DNA of 64,000 nt from Shouchella patagoniensis (GTDB taxonomy: Bacteria > Bacillota > Bacilli > Bacillales > Bacillaceae_D), in NCBI RefSeq assembly GCF_002019705.1, contig NZ_KV917377.1, positions 618,565 through 682,564 on the forward strand, written 5' to 3'. This document shows positions 35,286-59,855 of the stretch, one piece after another; position 1 is the stretch's first letter; each line of letters begins with the position of its first letter. Both the position numbers and the translations under genes were made by a program. The notes beneath the pieces are model-generated. The model was not told the DNA's origin. It made no database searches and saw nothing but the letters and a program-made list of their open reading frames with translations.

Positions 35286-35729
35286 ATGGAGTTCATAACC
35301 ATTAATGGAACGTCTGATGATCGATATAAACATTGCTTACACATTCGTACAAACGTATTTGTACATGAACAAGGTGTAGAAGCAGCTCTTGAGCAAGATG
35401 AGTATGATCAGTTAGCAACCCACATTGTTTTATATCTTGATGGTGAAGCAGTTGGAACAGGTCGTATTCGTTTGTTAGATACAAAAGCAAAGATTGAGCG
35501 TGTCTGCATTCTTAAGTCGGCAAGAAATAAAGGGGTAGGAAAAAGACTCATCCAACAGATGGAAAGTAAAGCCAGTGACTTAGGAGCTAGCAAACTCTCC
35601 CTTCATTCGCAAGAACATGCTTTACCCTTTTACTTAAATCTCGGTTATTCAATTGTTTCTGAACGTTTTTTTGATGCCGGAATTCCTCATTTTGCTATGG
35701 AAAAGCCTATCAAAAAAGCTAACGGTTAA
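35286..35729 (+). CDS. yjcF: GNAT acetyltransferase YjcF
   Basis: The 147-residue protein has the GNAT acetyl-CoA site: IERVCILKSARNKGVGKRLIQQ, the R/Q-x-x-G-x-G/A loop. The conserved start has IRTNVFVHEQGV, typical of the ElaA/YjcF group. The acceptor is unknown. It ends the yjcHGF operon and a strong terminator follows directly. Confidence 0.88.
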   Translation: MEFITINGTSDDRYKHCLHIRTNVFVHEQGVEAALEQDEYDQLATHIVLYLDGEAVGTGRIRLLDTKAKIERVCILKSARNKGVGKRLIQQMESKASDLGASKLSLHSQEHALPFYLNLGYSIVSERFFDAGIPHFAMEKPIKKANG

Positions 35730-35744
35730 ACCGTTAGCTTTTTT
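35713..35744. terminator. Bidirectional terminator between yjcF and the thi operon
   Basis: AAAAAGCTAACGGTT / AACCGTTAGCTTTTT stem with a tiny loop. It overlaps the last codons of both convergent genes and ends the TPP-controlled operon. Confidence 0.9.
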
Positions 35745-36057
35745 CCTTATTTAATTGATCTTTAACAGAACGCCTTTTCGAATCAAGCGTTGATTGTTTA
35801 TCTCTTCTATCATCAATACGTATATTTGTTGCAACTCGATTAACTCCATTTTCAAAAGGAAGTTCATGAATTTTTTGAATAACCTCAAATAATACTGGTA
35901 GTTCAGCTTCTATTAACGTACTCATTGGCGTCAATTCAAAAGTTAGTTTTCCTTCCAGTTTATACTCATCTAGAACCAATTGGATTTTTGCTACATATGA
36001 ACTTACACTCGGAGTACTAGTTCCAATGGGAATAATTGTTACATCTGCGATAGGCAT
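35734..36057 (-). CDS. yqgV: Thiamine-binding YqgV/MTH1187-type protein, internal start
   Basis: The same frame can be entered at an internal ATG preceded by AAAGGAGGTTAAAAAA, one of the strongest ribosome binding sites in the window, giving 107 residues. The body (about 85 residues) is the ferredoxin-like DUF77 fold; the tail is charged (DRRDKQST then KRRSVKDQ). B. subtilis YqgV is a free-standing homologue in the yqg region. It probably accumulates in addition to, or instead of, the fused form. A role in sensing or buffering thiamine is inferred from the fold and from the operon. Confidence 0.7.
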   Translation of the reverse strand: MPIADVTIIPIGTSTPSVSSYVAKIQLVLDEYKLEGKLTFELTPMSTLIEAELPVLFEVIQKIHELPFENGVNRVATNIRIDDRRDKQSTLDSKRRSVKDQLNKEKS

Positions 36058-36792
36058 TTTTTTAACCTCCTTTTGTTTTGCACTAAGTCTTTTAAATATG
36101 AGTTGGTCTGAAAACACTTGAAAACCTAACTTCTCATATGATTCAACAGCACAAAGCATATGTTTTTGACTTGGCTCTATTGTTGTAACATGCTCTTGAA
36201 GCCAATAAGAAATATATAACACAATTCGCTCTGGCCACTTCATCCAGTTCTTTCTGTGAAAAAGATGATAGAACAAAACAACAAATAATGAAAAATACGA
36301 ACTGATCATAAGTGAAGTATGAGCGGGTAACCAAATGTATAAAACAATCCATAAGCAAACCAAACTAAGAAAATAGACAGTCACAAGACCTGTTGAACAA
36401 CCTCGATTTTTAATCGTTGCCCGTTTTATTGCAGGTAAACGAAAGCGATTGATTCTTCCTCTCGTACTAAAGACTTTATGCTCTGCACCATGGTATTTTT
36501 TAAGCGATTTCGGAAAAATAAAATGGGTGCCAAACAGCAAATACAGAAAACAATAATACGGTAACCCATCCCAACTAAACGCCCACATTTTGGGGACAAG
36601 AATGAGTAAGATAACCCCAATTATAATAGACATAAACCATAAAGGTGATGTTGTAACAACAAGTCGAATTGCTTCTAAGTATGTACGTCCATTCATTGGC
36701 TTTACCCATGATTGTAACCGCCCGTCCAAATCATGGTATGCACAAGAAATATATCCTTCTGCCGTATAAAAAACGCCTGATTGAAAAGACAT
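35734..36792 (-). CDS. DUF1385-like membrane protein fused to a thiamine-binding domain
   Basis: A single frame of 352 residues. Residues 1-245 resemble the YqhQ/DUF1385 family: four hydrophobic segments (about 50-67, 80-93, 136-156, 160-178), the hallmark KKYHGAEHKVF at 98-108, and LQEHVTTIEPSQ at 198-209. Residues 246-352 are a YqgV/MTH1187-type (DUF77) domain starting MPIADVTIIPIGT and including ELTPMSTLIEAELP; proteins of this fold bind thiamine. A perfect AAAGGAGG site lies between the two halves. The gene closes the TPP-riboswitch operon, four bases after the preceding stop. The fusion, or the loss of a stop codon between two former genes, is notable. Confidence 0.75.
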   Translation of the reverse strand: MSFQSGVFYTAEGYISCAYHDLDGRLQSWVKPMNGRTYLEAIRLVVTTSPLWFMSIIIGVILLILVPKMWAFSWDGLPYYCFLYLLFGTHFIFPKSLKKYHGAEHKVFSTRGRINRFRLPAIKRATIKNRGCSTGLVTVYFLSLVCLWIVLYIWLPAHTSLMISSYFSLFVVLFYHLFHRKNWMKWPERIVLYISYWLQEHVTTIEPSQKHMLCAVESYEKLGFQVFSDQLIFKRLSAKQKEVKKMPIADVTIIPIGTSTPSVSSYVAKIQLVLDEYKLEGKLTFELTPMSTLIEAELPVLFEVIQKIHELPFENGVNRVATNIRIDDRRDKQSTLDSKRRSVKDQLNKEKS

Positions 36793-36796
36793 TCCA

Positions 36797-37354
36797 CTAA
36801 TTCTCAAGCAAATCACTCAACTCTTTGCTTTGAACCCAATACTGAACATTTTCCGCAGTCCCAAATGTTGGATCGCTAAAAAAGGCATCTTCACGTGTTA
36901 GCTCTGAGTGACTTGTCCATGTATGTAGAAGAGAGACAGTCACTTCACTTGCATCATCAGGAATATCCTGAATAATCTTCCCTTTTGTTCCTACACTTTG
37001 ATGCTCTTCCATAGTTGTTGGGAAAGAGTAAATGAATCCATTATCTACACGCTCCCCGTCCATTGAACGTTCTGGTTCCACTAACAATGTAACGATTCCA
37101 ACTTCATTGGCCTCTGCTTCATCAAAGGCAATACCAATGTAGTCTGTCCCATAAATACCTTCCACAGGCATTTTAGGCCATTCCCATTCAATCTCAACCA
37201 TGCCATCTTCAATTCTCTTTGCGGTAATCTCAATTTCTTCTTTTAACTCTTCATTTGTCATTTCTTCATCTTGCTGTAAATAATAAAAACCGCTCAATAC
37301 AATCACAACCATTAAAATAGCTGGTAGCAACAATACGACCCAATGTTTTTTCAA
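36797..37354 (-). CDS. Membrane-anchored protein of unknown function in the thi operon
   Basis: The 185-residue protein begins with a TTG seven bases after GAGGAG, four bases after the thiD stop. It has one N-terminal membrane helix (about 6-24, VVLLLPAILMVVIVLSGFY). A mostly acidic extracytoplasmic domain follows, with ITAKRIEDGMVEIEWEWP at its start and a beta-rich remainder containing three Trp-rich motifs. I recognise no family. Position between thiD and the thiamine-binding fusion suggests a link to thiamine, but this is inference only. Confidence 0.65.
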   Translation of the reverse strand: MKKHWVVLLLPAILMVVIVLSGFYYLQQDEEMTNEELKEEIEITAKRIEDGMVEIEWEWPKMPVEGIYGTDYIGIAFDEAEANEVGIVTLLVEPERSMDGERVDNGFIYSFPTTMEEHQSVGTKGKIIQDIPDDASEVTVSLLHTWTSHSELTREDAFFSDPTFGTAENVQYWVQSKELSDLLEN

Positions 37355-37358
37355 CGTG

Positions 37359-38171
37359 TCACTCCTCACTTGCCTTTTTCAACTTATAGGCAGCATGATT
37401 CGTTGGACCTTTTCCTGCTCCTAAAGAAAAACCACATTGAATGGCTTCTGTAATAAACACTTTCGCTGTTTTAATTGCTTGCATCACATCGTCACCTTTG
37501 GCTAACTCTGCCGCAATGGCTGAAGCGAATGTGCAACCAGTACCGTGAGTATGCTCTTTCTCTATTCGTTTACTCACTAGAACTTCAAATTGTTGCCCAT
37601 CATAAATAAGATCTGTTGCATCTCCTTTTAAATGGCCACCTTTAAGTACAATATATTTAGGACCCAACTTATATAATTGTACCGCGGCTTCTTTCATTTC
37701 TGCAATTGTTTCTGGCTCTTTTCTGTTTAAGATGAATGCAGCTTCCGGTAAATTAGGTGTAAATACAGTTGTTTTCGGTAGTAGCTTTTCATTTAATGCT
37801 TTAATACCTTCATCATCTAGCAAAGCCGTTCCACTAGTGGAGGCAATAACCGGGTCTACGACAACGTTCTTAACAGCATATTTGTCAATTAATCGAGACA
37901 CCATTTCAATATGATGCTTACTGACAAGCATTCCCGTTTTTAAAGATTGCGCACCAATGTCCTTTAAAACGGCATCTGCTTGTGCATAAACAAGCTCCGG
38001 TTCAATTGTGGAAATTTCTTGGACCCCTAATGTATTTTGAGCAGTAATGGCTGTGATGGACGTAGCAGCATATACGCCTAGTTCTTGGCATGTTTTAATA
38101 TCTGCTTGAATACCAGCCCCTCCTCCAGAATCGGAGCCAGCTATCGATAACACAACTGGGATTGACACCAC
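37359..38171 (-). CDS. thiD: Hydroxymethylpyrimidine/phosphomethylpyrimidine kinase
   Basis: A 270-residue ribokinase-family enzyme that phosphorylates HMP and HMP-phosphate in thiamine synthesis. It begins VLSIAGSDSGGGAGIQADIK and carries VVDPVIASTSGTALL, VLKGGHL and the GTGCTFASAIA anion-hole motif. It follows thiO by about 11 bases and is in the TPP-riboswitch operon. The pyridoxal-kinase relatives of the family have the same core, but the operon favours ThiD. Confidence 0.94.
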   Translation of the reverse strand: MVSIPVVLSIAGSDSGGGAGIQADIKTCQELGVYAATSITAITAQNTLGVQEISTIEPELVYAQADAVLKDIGAQSLKTGMLVSKHHIEMVSRLIDKYAVKNVVVDPVIASTSGTALLDDEGIKALNEKLLPKTTVFTPNLPEAAFILNRKEPETIAEMKEAAVQLYKLGPKYIVLKGGHLKGDATDLIYDGQQFEVLVSKRIEKEHTHGTGCTFASAIAAELAKGDDVMQAIKTAKVFITEAIQCGFSLGAGKGPTNHAAYKLKKASEE

Positions 38172-38182
38172 TTTTAACCTCC

Positions 38183-39289
38183 TTATGTAAATCGTTCAGG
38201 GTGAAATGAGCTAAGAGGAACTGAAGGCTCTTTTTCACTCAACAATTCCACCACCAATTTAGCTGTTATCGCACTTAATAAAATACCATTTCGGTAATGA
38301 CCACAAGCCATGTAAATATTCGGATACTGCGTTAATGCTCCTATAAAAGGATATCCGTCCTGCGTTGCTGGTCTTAGTCCTGCCCAAGTATGAAACGGTT
38401 TTTCGTTTTTTAAAAATGGTAAAATCTTACCATTCCAATTCGTTAATCGCTTTATGCCTTTCTCAGTTACATCTGTTTGAAAGCCAACAATATCTTCGGA
38501 AGCACCGTTTACAATTGTCCCATTTGCTTTTGGTACTAAATAACCTTGGCTTGTATATAAGATATGGTGGATCCGCTTCTGTTCAAGTGTATACGCACAG
38601 ATTTGCCCACGAATTGGAACAATTGGCAAGGATACATTTAATACATCGGCCTGTTCCAGTGCCCAGGCTCCGGTTGCAATAACTAGCTTATCGGCTTCAA
38701 ATGACATACCATTAGAAGCCGATAATAAAGCTGGTTTTGTTGCTTTTTCAAGCTTTACATCTACAAGATGCTCAAAAATCTTAACTCCACACTGACGGCA
38801 CGCCACCTCAAGCGCCTTTACGTAGTCGGGCGCATACACATGTGCTTCCTCTGGATAATGAATCGCCCCAATAATTTCTTGAGACAACTCCGGTTCTAGT
38901 TCGTTTAATTCCTCTTTCCCAAGCACGTTTGCTTGTGCACCAAATGATTCTTGCCAACTTTTTCTTGTCTCTAAAGATAATAAATCTGCTTCATGGTAAA
39001 CGCAGTGTAAACTACCTGACTCAGTATATTCGAACTCGTAACCAGATTCCTTTTTTACAATTGCCTGCCACGATTTAAACTCACGTAAACTAGCCAAACA
39101 AAGTCGAAAAAAATCATCTGGATCTTCGGTAATCTCGGAATATGGGGCAAGCATCCCAGCTGCCGCACCAGAAGCCTGGCCACCACATGCATTTTTTTCT
39201 AATAAGGTTACGGAAGCGCCATCTAATGCCAACTTAAGTGCAATGGATAATCCAATGACACCTCCGCCAAGAACAACAGTCTCTTCCAT
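38183..39289 (-). CDS. thiO: Glycine oxidase ThiO
   Basis: The 368-residue FAD enzyme oxidises glycine to the imine used to build the thiazole. The Rossmann motif VVLGGGVIGLSIALKLA is at the N-terminus and the DAO-type C-terminal HYRNGILLSAITA is present. TWAGLRPATQDGYPFIG marks the substrate region. It lies five bases after thiG. Presence of ThiO rather than ThiH marks the aerobic route. Confidence 0.94.
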   Translation of the reverse strand: MEETVVLGGGVIGLSIALKLALDGASVTLLEKNACGGQASGAAAGMLAPYSEITEDPDDFFRLCLASLREFKSWQAIVKKESGYEFEYTESGSLHCVYHEADLLSLETRKSWQESFGAQANVLGKEELNELEPELSQEIIGAIHYPEEAHVYAPDYVKALEVACRQCGVKIFEHLVDVKLEKATKPALLSASNGMSFEADKLVIATGAWALEQADVLNVSLPIVPIRGQICAYTLEQKRIHHILYTSQGYLVPKANGTIVNGASEDIVGFQTDVTEKGIKRLTNWNGKILPFLKNEKPFHTWAGLRPATQDGYPFIGALTQYPNIYMACGHYRNGILLSAITAKLVVELLSEKEPSVPLSSFHPERFT

Positions 39290-39294
39290 GCACT

Positions 39295-40083
39295 CTACCC
39301 CTTAAACGATGAAATCAATGATTCATACTGGCTGCTCGCCGTTGCATACTTCTTTTTTGGTATACGTCCAGCTTCAAATGACATTCTTCCGGCATCAATT
39401 GCATACTTCATCGCCTTTGCCATTTTAACTGGGTCTTTCGCTTTGGCTACTGGCGTATTCATTAAAATTCCATCAACGCCAAGCTCCATCGCAAGCGCAA
39501 CATCACTAGCTGAACCAAGACCTGCATCAACAATAATTGGAACGTTCGCTTCTTCCGCGATCAACCCAATATTATATGGATTTAAAATCCCAAGACCTGT
39601 CCCAATTGGCGAAGCACCTGGCATAACAGCTGCAGCTCCGGCTTCTTCTAGTCGTTTGCAAAGAATTGGATCATCCGATGTATAAGGGAGTACAACAAAT
39701 CCTTCTTTGACAAGTATTTCGGTAGCTTTAAGTGTTTCAATGGGGTCGGGTAGAAGTGTTTTTTCAGATGCACTAATCTCTACTTTTATCCACTCACTTA
39801 ATCCTGCAGCTCTAGCTAAACGGGCAATTCGTACCGCTTCTTCAGCATTACTTGCTCCTGATGTGTTTGGCAAGTATTGAAGAGTTCTCCCCTCAAGGTG
39901 TTGCAAAATCGAGTCTTCCCCAGGTGCTTCTAAATTTACTCTGCGAATCGCGAATGTTAATACCTCTGCTCCTGAAGCTTTAATTGCTTCGTTCTGAACA
40001 TAGGGGTTTGGATACCTGCCTGTGCCAAGAAAAAAGCGAGAAGACAACGTTTTTCCACCGATCACCAATTGTTTTTGCTTCAT
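39295..40083 (-). CDS. thiG: Thiazole synthase
   Basis: The 262-residue TIM-barrel enzyme condenses DXP, the ThiS thiocarboxylate and the glycine imine. Motifs [40 protein letters not shown] and [16 protein letters not shown] are those of ThiG, with the Schiff-base Lys in IKVEIS. It lies between thiS and thiO in the usual order. Confidence 0.96.
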
Positions 40084-40086
40084 TTC

Positions 40087-40284
40087 TTAACCACCTCCTA
40101 CAAAATGAACTAATTCAATCTGCATTCCTTCTTGGAGCATTGTTTCTTTCCAATGAGAACGATCGATAATCTCACCATCAACTTCTGCAACCACAAGTTG
40201 GCTAGACAGCTCATATTCAACAACTAATTCATACAGTGACAAACTTTTAGAATTTAGTTGTCCTCCATTTACAATTATTTTCAT
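40087..40284 (-). CDS. thiS: Sulfur carrier protein ThiS
   Basis: The 65-residue ubiquitin-like protein carries sulfur as a C-terminal thiocarboxylate. The tail ends VHFVGGG with the Gly-Gly needed for adenylation. The short VNGxxLNSKSLSLYELV start is typical. It overlaps the end of thiE by four bases. Its activating enzyme, ThiF, is not in this operon but is encoded at about 50 kb. Confidence 0.93.
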   Translation of the reverse strand: MKIIVNGGQLNSKSLSLYELVVEYELSSQLVVAEVDGEIIDRSHWKETMLQEGMQIELVHFVGGG

Positions 40285-40910
40285 TGTTTAGCCTCTTCCA
40301 ATGCTTCTTTCATTGCGGCACTTGCAGCTTTCACATCTTTTGCGGCAACAATTTCCGTAATCACACAAACTCTATCTGCACCTGCTTCAACCACTTCTTT
40401 TACATTATGCAACTTAATGCCACCTATTGCGACAAAAGGAATGGAGACATGATCTTTTACTTCCTGGATATAAGAAGTTGTTACAGGGTCTACAACATCA
40501 ACTTTACTTTTAGTCGGAAAAATCGGCCCAACCCCAATATAATCTGCACCATTCTTCTCTGCCTCTAATGCTTCTTCTAGTTTATGGGAAGAAACCCCAA
40601 TCATTTTTTTCGGTCCAATAAGCTTCCTCACTTCTGCTAACGGCATATCATCTTGTCCGATGTGAACACCATCTGCGTCTACGACTAAAGCTATATCAAT
40701 GTGATCATTCACAATAAAGGGAACATCATACTTTGCACATAATTCCTTTAGGTTTCTTGCCTTTTCAAGTAAATCCTTTTTACTACTTGTTTTGTCACGA
40801 AGTTGGATGATATCTGCGCCTCCTTGGATGGCTTCTTCCATCACATCAATCAAGTTTCGTTCAGGGTGAAATTCTTCTCCGGTAATCACATACAAATGAA
40901 AATCTCTCAT
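40281..40910 (-). CDS. thiE: Thiamine-phosphate synthase
   Basis: A 209-residue TIM-barrel enzyme that joins HMP-PP and thiazole phosphate. It has GGADIIQLRDK, the pyrophosphate/Mg region FIVNDHIDIALVVDADGVHIGQDD and IGVSSH, then GADYIGVGPIFPT. These are residues of ThiE rather than of the related aromatase TenI. It is the first gene behind the TPP riboswitch and starts with a GAGGAATAG-type site upstream. Confidence 0.92.
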   Translation of the reverse strand: MRDFHLYVITGEEFHPERNLIDVMEEAIQGGADIIQLRDKTSSKKDLLEKARNLKELCAKYDVPFIVNDHIDIALVVDADGVHIGQDDMPLAEVRKLIGPKKMIGVSSHKLEEALEAEKNGADYIGVGPIFPTKSKVDVVDPVTTSYIQEVKDHVSIPFVAIGGIKLHNVKEVVEAGADRVCVITEIVAAKDVKAASAAMKEALEEAKQ

Positions 40911-40933
40911 CTTCTATTCCTCCTCTATACAAT

Positions 40934-40962
40934 AAAAAAGACCGCAGCAAAGGGGCTGCGGC
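40934..40962 (-). terminator. Expression-platform terminator of the TPP riboswitch
   Basis: On the minus strand GCCGCAGC / GCTGCGGT with a six-base loop and CTTTTTTATT, between the aptamer and thiE. Confidence 0.88.
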
Positions 40963-40982
40963 CTGCATGCACAAACATAAGG

Positions 40983-41078
40983 TCCGACTTCCCTCCGCTG
41001 GCATCACCCAGATCAGGTCAAAAGGGTATAAGAAACGAGTTCTTATTCTCAGCCCGACTTCTCCAGGCACCCCTAGTC
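40983..41078 (-). promoter_or_regulatory. TPP riboswitch (thi element)
   Basis: The minus strand has the conserved TPP-aptamer pieces in order: ACTAGGGGTGCC, GGCTGAGA, ACCCTTTTGACCTGATCTGG, GTGATGCCAGCGGAGGGAAGT. With the terminator that follows it should repress the thi operon when thiamine pyrophosphate is plentiful. Confidence 0.96.
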
Positions 41079-41135
41079 ATTTAACAATCATTATGACATA
41101 TCTTTATACTTGATTTAAACCAGTTTGCTTCATTT

Positions 41136-59632: not shown

Positions 59633-59855
59633 AAAAGACACCCGGAATGCGGATGTCTATTGTTGTTAAAGTCGTTACCCGCAAGTGCCGTTTGCAGTGA
59701 ATGTTTCATGAACCTACTCTCGTAGGTGGGTGTCCGCAGTTAGCCTTTCGAAGTCTAGAACAAGCTAGCTTGACGTTGTGCTACTCATATAGAACTCCCT
59801 TTTTCACATTCAAGGTTCGAAACATAAAAAAGCGGACGAACACGGCAGGTAATTC
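59633..59855 (-). ncRNA. ssrS: 6S RNA
   Basis: The 306-base gap between pbpA and the MFS gene encodes a minus-strand RNA of about 220 nt. A near-perfect promoter (TTGACA, 18-base spacer, TATACT) lies upstream and a terminator at the end. The ends pair: 5' TTACCTGC with 3' GCGGGTAA and GCCGT with ACGGC. The core AACTGCGGACACCCACCT followed by AGGTTCA resembles the conserved AACTGCG-GACAC-CACCT and GGTTCA stretch of 6S RNA. 6S RNA mimics an open promoter and binds sigma-A RNA polymerase in stationary phase. Confidence 0.78.

Follow-up and report, generated by a model that had tools for sequence, protein, structure and literature searches.

A conserved start codon inside a DUF1385-YqgV fusion gene behind the TPP-riboswitch thi operon of Shouchella patagoniensis

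Introduction

Why should a riboswitch-led thi operon be followed so closely by two genes for membrane proteins? This question is raised by a 64,000-nucleotide stretch of the Shouchella patagoniensis genome (assembly GCF_002019705.1, contig NZ_KV917377.1, positions 618,565 to 682,564), hereafter called the window, in which thiE, thiS, thiG, thiO and thiD stand behind a thiamine pyrophosphate (TPP) riboswitch and are followed on the same strand by ORF185, an open frame of 185 residues, and by a gene that joins a DUF1385-like membrane part to a YqgV/MTH1187-type domain. The sequence-only reading of this locus had proposed an undescribed module for thiamine uptake, sensing or salvage. Using profile searches, structure models and comparisons with related genomes, we found that the fusion gene keeps a start codon and a ribosome-binding site at the boundary of its two parts. 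This internal start had been missed before and is the unexpected part of the locus, and it suggests that a single reading frame may supply two products.

Results

A conserved internal start in the fusion gene

The fusion gene has the following features.

35734..36792, minus strand: DUF1385-YqgV fusion, 352 amino acids, start ATG at 36792; matches PF07136 and PF01910/TIGR00106; fused in 51 of 59 distinct loci
36058..36792, minus strand: DUF1385-like membrane part, with a positively charged loop carrying YHGAEHKVFS and NRxCST (from alignment, model helices, hydropathy and K+R counts)
35734..36057, minus strand: YqgV/MTH1187 domain, 107 amino acids, with its own internal start ATG at 36057-36055 (Thiamine_BP/TIGR00106 match)
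36066..36073, minus strand: internal Shine-Dalgarno (SD) sequence of the linker, AAAGGAGG, 8 bases upstream of the internal ATG (read from the sequence)

At the internal start, the window reads AAAGGAGG-TTAAAAAA-ATG. For comparison, 87 loci (the window, L034-L073, L106-L150 and L166) were reduced to 59 distinct ones by dropping exact repeats and L044, which has no YqgV match, and a locus was counted as fused when at least 200 open codons lay upstream of the YqgV start. By this definition, 51 loci are fused, five are split by a stop codon or a frame change (L040-L043 and L146), and in three the upstream frame is interrupted (L034, L046 and L149). The first YqgV residue is encoded by a start codon in all 59 loci (ATG in 52, TTG in five and GTG in two), including all 51 fusions (ATG 45, TTG five, GTG one). 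All five Leu residues found at the boundary are encoded by TTG, which makes up 15% of Leu codons (chance about 7e-5).

The ribosome-binding site is kept together with the start codon. When the longest match to the SD consensus 4-20 bases upstream was scored, its mean was 6.47 nt in the 51 fusions, compared with 4.25 after the linker codons were redrawn from the codon usage of the same gene (400 sets, highest set mean 4.75). A match of at least 6 was found at 44 of the 51 YqgV starts and at 11 of 1022 other in-frame ATG, GTG or TTG codons (mean 3.0), and the YqgV start is strictly the best internal SD site in 41 fusions. Glu codons in the linker are GAG rather than GAA at a ratio of 66:11, against 339:635 elsewhere in the same fusion genes. 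The linker itself, counted between the last conserved Phe and the start, has seven lengths between 13 and 19 residues, all differing by whole codons, so that the frame is kept (47 of the 51 fusions; in L139, L141, L144 and L148 the motif could not be placed). Since the start codon and a strong ribosome-binding site are conserved beyond synonymous expectation while the linker varies by whole codons, we infer one frame with two products. Selection seems to have acted on the fused frame as well as on the separate start, with the reservation that the rows are related and the counts are not independent.

Both families in the fusion score above their curated cut-offs: Thiamine_BP (PF01910) reaches 101.1 against 24.9, TIGR00106 103.8 against 54.7, and DUF1385 (PF07136) 45.9 against 22.1. 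The DUF1385 match, the only one in this genome, spans profile positions 45-223 and leaves the N-terminal profile part unmatched. With a profile built for this DUF1385 branch, members from the GTDB family of the window score 294-413 bits and remoter strong matches go down to 70, and other DUF1385 proteins reach at most 49 bits among the matches listed. A second Thiamine_BP protein is encoded elsewhere in the genome, at C1:1937114-1937365. The AlphaFold model of the fusion opens with a hairpin at the N-terminus and continues with a helical membrane part, the linker (residues 232-244) and a domain with the ferredoxin-like fold of MTH1187; the linker is the sole stretch in which the predicted local distance difference test (pLDDT) value falls below 50. 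Hydropathy gives three clear membrane stretches, 48-66, 135-153 and 160-178, to which the model adds a short helix, 81-92. The loop 95-132 holds 12 Lys or Arg and 1 Asp or Glu, and region 178-247 holds 12 and 7, respectively. By the positive-inside rule, the loop and the YqgV domain would lie on the cytoplasmic side, provided that the protein crosses the membrane four times.

The transcription unit in the window and ORF185

The remaining features of the unit are as follows.

40973..41084, minus strand: TPP riboswitch aptamer (Rfam RF00059, full length, 75 bits against a gathering score of 54.3)
40939..40964, minus strand: intrinsic terminator, a 10-pair hairpin with a T run, likely the riboswitch expression platform
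40281..40910, minus strand: thiE (TIGR00693, 252 bits)
40087..40284, minus strand: thiS (TIGR01683, 66.6 bits)
39295..40083, minus strand: thiG (Pfam PF05690, 369 bits)
38183..39289, minus strand: thiO (TIGR02352, 370 bits)
37359..38171, minus strand: thiD (TIGR00097, 318 bits)
36797..37354, minus strand: ORF185, 185 amino acids, start TTG at 37354; open frame with no family match
35712..35744, listed on the plus strand, letters read both ways: terminator-like inverted repeat between convergent genes, overlapping the fusion stop codon

The anatomy described by the sequence-only reading held up in every part. The aptamer scores above the gathering score and has its hairpin platform directly behind it, ThiE, ThiS, ThiO and ThiD pass their NCBIfam cut-offs and ThiG is clear in Pfam, the gaps between thiD and ORF185 and between ORF185 and the fusion were both measured as 4 bases, and the DUF1385-like protein is joined in frame to the YqgV/MTH1187-type domain. 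The claim that no terminator precedes about 35744 was borne out as well, as the terminator scan of the window lists none on the minus strand between 40939 and the end of the fusion, and the strong inverted repeat at 35712-35744 marks the end of the transcription unit. Promoter-like sites are not enriched over shuffled sequences (26 against 22.9, sd 4.1). Elsewhere in the window, a 6S RNA lies at 59672-59854 (RF00013, 83 bits).

ORF185 had been described as a membrane-anchored protein of no known family, and this description is confirmed: it has no match up to E 1 in Pfam or NCBIfam, and its AlphaFold model (mean pLDDT 88) shows a single helix at residues 5-27 followed by the strands of a beta-rich domain, for which no convincing structural relative was found in the PDB. 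ORF185 is thus predicted to be anchored in the membrane by a single helix at its N-terminus, with the beta-rich domain outside the cell.

Distribution and gene order in relatives

The sequence-only reading had called for a search for the same gene order in other Bacillaceae, and the order was found. ORF185 is present in all 41 genomes of the GTDB family of the window, which cover seven genera (in two pieces in G014). In 40 other loci of this family fetched for comparison, the gene order is largely kept: thiE-S-G-O-D comes first, ORF185 and the fusion follow, and beyond them lie a convergent GNAT gene and the genes of a LigT-type protein and an esterase protein; the exceptions are L044, a reduced genome without the fusion, and L056, which meets a contig edge before thi. 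Such an arrangement, with ORF185 in 41 of 41 genomes and the gene order kept, is not a product of chance. The fusion occurs in Shouchella, Halalkalibacter, Alkalihalophilus, Alkalihalobacillus, Halalkalibacterium, Alkalicoccobacillus, Alkalihalobacterium, Anaerobacillus, Evansella, Salipaludibacillus, Alteribacillus, Salibacterium and Marinococcus, with L113 as the locus of Alkalihalophilus pseudofirmus OF4. In 43 of 46 named fusion loci the fusion is preceded by ORF185, which was not found in L131 (contig edge) or in the Marinococcus loci L147 and L150.

Among 397 genomes of the order, ORF185 is present in 56 and this DUF1385 branch in 51 (strong matches, E <1e-15). By hand count, 45 genomes have both, 11 have ORF185 only, six have the DUF1385 branch only and 335 have neither, and in the 45 genomes with both the two genes are adjacent. 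Frequent neighbours of the pair are ROK/glcK, YqgU (PF21101), a YqgX-like Lactamase_B gene and a ComGA-like T2SSE gene. When 35 loci were fetched through YqgV (L151-L185), one was a fusion (L166) and 34 were plain YqgV; 25 of the 34 are flanked by glcK or YqgU on the upstream side and by YqgX or ComGA on the downstream side, three have none of these neighbours, and none of the 34 has a match to ORF185 or to this DUF1385 branch nearby. ORF185 and the DUF1385-YqgV fusion thus appear, from their gene neighbourhoods, as a module of their own, often placed in the glcK...yqgX-comGA interval where other Bacillus have plain yqgV.

In a quick DUF1385 tree of 52 rows, the families with thi upstream (f1, f5, f28, f42 and f45) fall in one 31-row set with a support of 88, which is not starred, and f25, Evansella and f35 fall outside it; the tree is long-branched and its root is unknown. 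Nine rows of this tree are not fused, and four changes between fused and non-fused are needed. Within Shouchella, the three split rows of the tree group in a single starred clade that lies beside and among fused ones, so that splitting looks derived in this genus. As a separate observation, the f25 genomes L230-L232, L234 and L235 have the DUF1385 branch behind ORF185 and no YqgV match, and among the f25 loci lacking this match three of four tree rows are long-branched.

Coupling to the thi genes

How closely the module is tied to the thi genes differs between lineages. A gap was counted as holding a terminator when it contained a hairpin of at least 9 pairs with a T run. In all 13 Shouchella genomes, including the window, the gap between thiD and ORF185 is at most 18 nt and terminator-free, and the same holds for L046, L062 and L068, for a total of 16 of 40 testable family loci. 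In the other 24, the gap exceeds 40 nt, and 11 of these hold a terminator. Over all gaps longer than 40 nt, within the family and beyond, terminators were found in 11 of 38, against 0.6 expected from mononucleotide shuffles; the 14 gaps outside the family hold none. The TPP riboswitch precedes thiE in all 17 family genomes sampled of the 41. Outside the family, 13 of the 15 loci with thiD upstream were scanned and 11 have the riboswitch before thi; in the two others, L199 and L219, the fetched stretch begins inside the thi operon. No TPP riboswitch lies between thiD and ORF185 in the scanned stretches.

The sequence-only reading had proposed co-regulation with thi. For the window and Shouchella this part stands, with co-transcription well supported by the gene anatomy, but it does not extend to the whole family, where most gaps are long and many carry terminators, nor to loci free of thi. 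Tight coupling thus appears, from gap lengths, to be a trait of Shouchella and three other family loci. The proposed role in uptake found no support, since the module in the window comes without a permease or ATPase: the operon genes there include no permease and ATPase genes of the YkoFEDC, ThiXYZ or ECF type.

Several loci show further arrangements in front of ORF185. A pair of ATP-binding cassette (ABC) ATPase and UPF0014 genes, presumably of the YbbL/YbbM type, stands directly before ORF185, with or without thi upstream, in L051-L053, L057, L060, L064, L066, L199, L216, L222-L224 and L227; in several loci of the family this pair occupies the gap between thiD and ORF185. The thiD-ORF185 gap of L061 holds an ORF that looks like a transposase. 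In Bacillus taeanensis (L173), thiE-G-O-D lie upstream of a plain YqgV gene, with neither ORF185 nor DUF1385.

Thiamine context of the genome

Six TPP riboswitches were found in the genome. Besides the thi operon, they precede tenA, an M20 hydrolase gene with tenA, a second thiD, ykoEDC-like genes and a bacimethrin-like cluster. ThiC has no match in this genome, although ThiE, ThiG and ThiD are present. Taken together, the six riboswitch-led gene sets and the absence of ThiC suggest that the handling of compounds of the hydroxymethylpyrimidine (HMP) type matters to this genome, which is context and not proof for a role of the module; a role in thiamine sensing or buffering is possible.

Some of these gene sets deserve a description of their own. 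The transporter set at G000:C1:337120-339945 (L190 1621-4446) consists of a TPP riboswitch followed by ABC_cobalt, ABC_tran and CbiQ genes (Pfam names) without YkoF, and we take these genes to be ykoE-ykoD-ykoC-like. ThiC is also missing in other genomes, with 15 of the 41 family genomes lacking it (nine of 13 Shouchella, all five of genus g2, and G011). At G000:C1:2250022-2253822 (L187 1023-4823), a TPP riboswitch is followed by genes for a nucleoside deoxyribosyltransferase, a thymidylate-synthase-like protein, a methyltransferase and a HAD-NUDIX protein; the first three are of the types described in PMC5627462 and PMC12345177 for the enzyme set of the antivitamin bacimethrin.

Discussion

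The explanation that we favour, and to which we give an even chance, is as follows. In this genus, the TPP-riboswitch-led thiE-S-G-O-D transcript would run on into ORF185 and the fusion gene, which would be translated in two ways. Initiation at 36792 would give a membrane protein with a cytoplasmic C-terminal YqgV domain, and initiation at the internal ATG 36057 would give free YqgV. Proteins of the YqgV/MTH1187 family form small oligomers (tetramers), so a mixed oligomer of tethered and free subunits, assembled next to the membrane, is the likely working form. This oligomer may bind thiamine, HMP or a related ligand and couple it to both the DUF1385 part and the extracellular domain of ORF185.

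Several points weigh against this explanation. First, the fusion counts come from related rows. Second, a linker rich in Lys and Glu favours SD-like sequence by itself, as seen in the resampled mean of 4.25 against 3.0 at other in-frame codons, and in 10 of the 51 fusions the SD match of the YqgV start is equalled or exceeded at another in-frame NTG codon. Third, the split arrangement is viable, as it occurs in five of the 59 distinct loci, and the upstream frame is interrupted in L034, which is the nearest relative, and in L046 and L149, possibly by assembly errors. Fourth, the parts do not always go together: L044 has ORF185 but no YqgV match, and among 40 loci outside the family five have DUF1385 without YqgV and five have YqgV without DUF1385. 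Finally, thi is absent upstream in 25 of the 40 non-family ORF185 loci, with thiD upstream in the other 15.

The strongest competitor, which we rate somewhat below even, is that the thi neighbourhood is a matter of position only: thi would have arrived in the ancestral glcK-comGA interval, and the module would serve a purpose at the membrane unrelated to thiamine, for example a surface function in alkaliphiles. This is in line with the terminators in 11 of the 24 longer family gaps, with the 15 of 46 named fusion loci that lack a thi match on contigs reaching 6 kb upstream, among them loci of Salipaludibacillus, Evansella, Alteribacillus and Salibacterium in which the ORF185-fusion pair is present, and with the 33 of 34 plain-YqgV loci without a thi match in the fetched stretch. 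The named fusion-bearing genera are also mostly alkaliphiles or halophiles. Yet thiD lies upstream of ORF185, at a distance of no more than 2 kb, in every one of the 39 testable family loci other than the window and in 7/7, 4/4, 1/1 and 1/1 loci of four more families, and thi is found upstream in other branches too, namely in L146 of the f35 branch, in two of 12 f35 loci (both without DUF1385) and in the plain-YqgV locus L173. Such a scattered association would mean either an old arrangement that was lost in places or an association that arose repeatedly, and the second would favour a functional link. We propose that the module represents the Bacillus yqgV position enlarged by ORF185 and DUF1385, with thi beside it in one large branch and occasionally elsewhere, and that the thi transcript was extended over the module in Shouchella; this order of events is tentative.

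An unlikely alternative is that two overlapping genes happened to share a frame and left the fusion as a relic, in which case free YqgV would be the functional product and the read-through protein tolerated noise. The split forms with overlapping or adjacent stop and start codons in Shouchella (L040-L043) and in L146 fit such a history, and in the window the fusion's own start seems to have the weaker ribosome-binding site of the two. But the frame is kept in 51 of 59 distinct loci across several families with linkers differing by whole codons, and the clade of split Shouchella rows points to splitting as the derived state. Less likely still is that only the fusion is made and the linker resembles an SD sequence as a side effect of a KKEEK-type motif important to the protein, for although resampled linkers keep part of the SD match and the second Thiamine_BP protein could supply free subunits, the linker codons are strongly skewed to GAG and the boundary residue is Met, TTG-encoded Leu or GTG-encoded Val in 59 of 59 loci.

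One gene with two products is a known principle, of which the fusion would be a new instance. For the LysIME-EF1 endolysin, PMC7098653 describes a tetramer of one full-length chain and three internally started domains, and in Cas11b, according to PMC11899642, an internal start within one gene gives a free C-terminal part. The likeness to the fusion lies in the single gene, the internal start and the free C-terminal part, and by analogy with LysIME-EF1 a mixed assembly of tethered and free YqgV is the one that we favour; LysIME-EF1 and Cas11b are unrelated proteins for which the arrangement was shown experimentally.

For the two families in the fusion, comparison with known systems gives differences as well. 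YqgV/MTH1187 (TIGR00106, PF01910, UPF0045) here stands C-terminal to a DUF1385 membrane part and keeps an internal start, and DUF1385 (PF07136), whose family protein we take to be YqhQ, is represented by a divergent, fused branch with the N-terminal profile part unmatched. In the literature searched for these names we found no tested function of DUF1385 or of the YqgV branch; one paper calls the YqgV family a possible thiamine-binding protein. The study of TM0486 (Dermoun 2010) is cited in PMC6393860, and with an identity of 13% between TM0486 and the YqgV domain of the window its ligand is not safely transferable. Thiamine binding by this YqgV branch is putative and taken from the family name. 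YkoF is described in PMC5627462 as a tandem soluble protein beside the HMP transporter YkoC-F; in contrast, the domain in the window is fused to a membrane part, and YkoF (PF07615) has no match in any of the 41 family genomes.

Conclusion

In conclusion, the fusion of DUF1385 to YqgV and the start codon inside it are both conserved, and ORF185 is a candidate partner gene. If the two products are confirmed, the locus would be a case outside phages and CRISPR systems in which one gene supplies both subunit forms of an oligomer. A further reading, which we hold improbable, is that alkaliphilic and halophilic Bacillaceae have here a riboswitch-controlled vitamin sensor, in which a mixed oligomer is tied through DUF1385 to an extracellular beta-rich protein. 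If this reading is true, it would provide a functional context for DUF1385, a family named for its unknown function.

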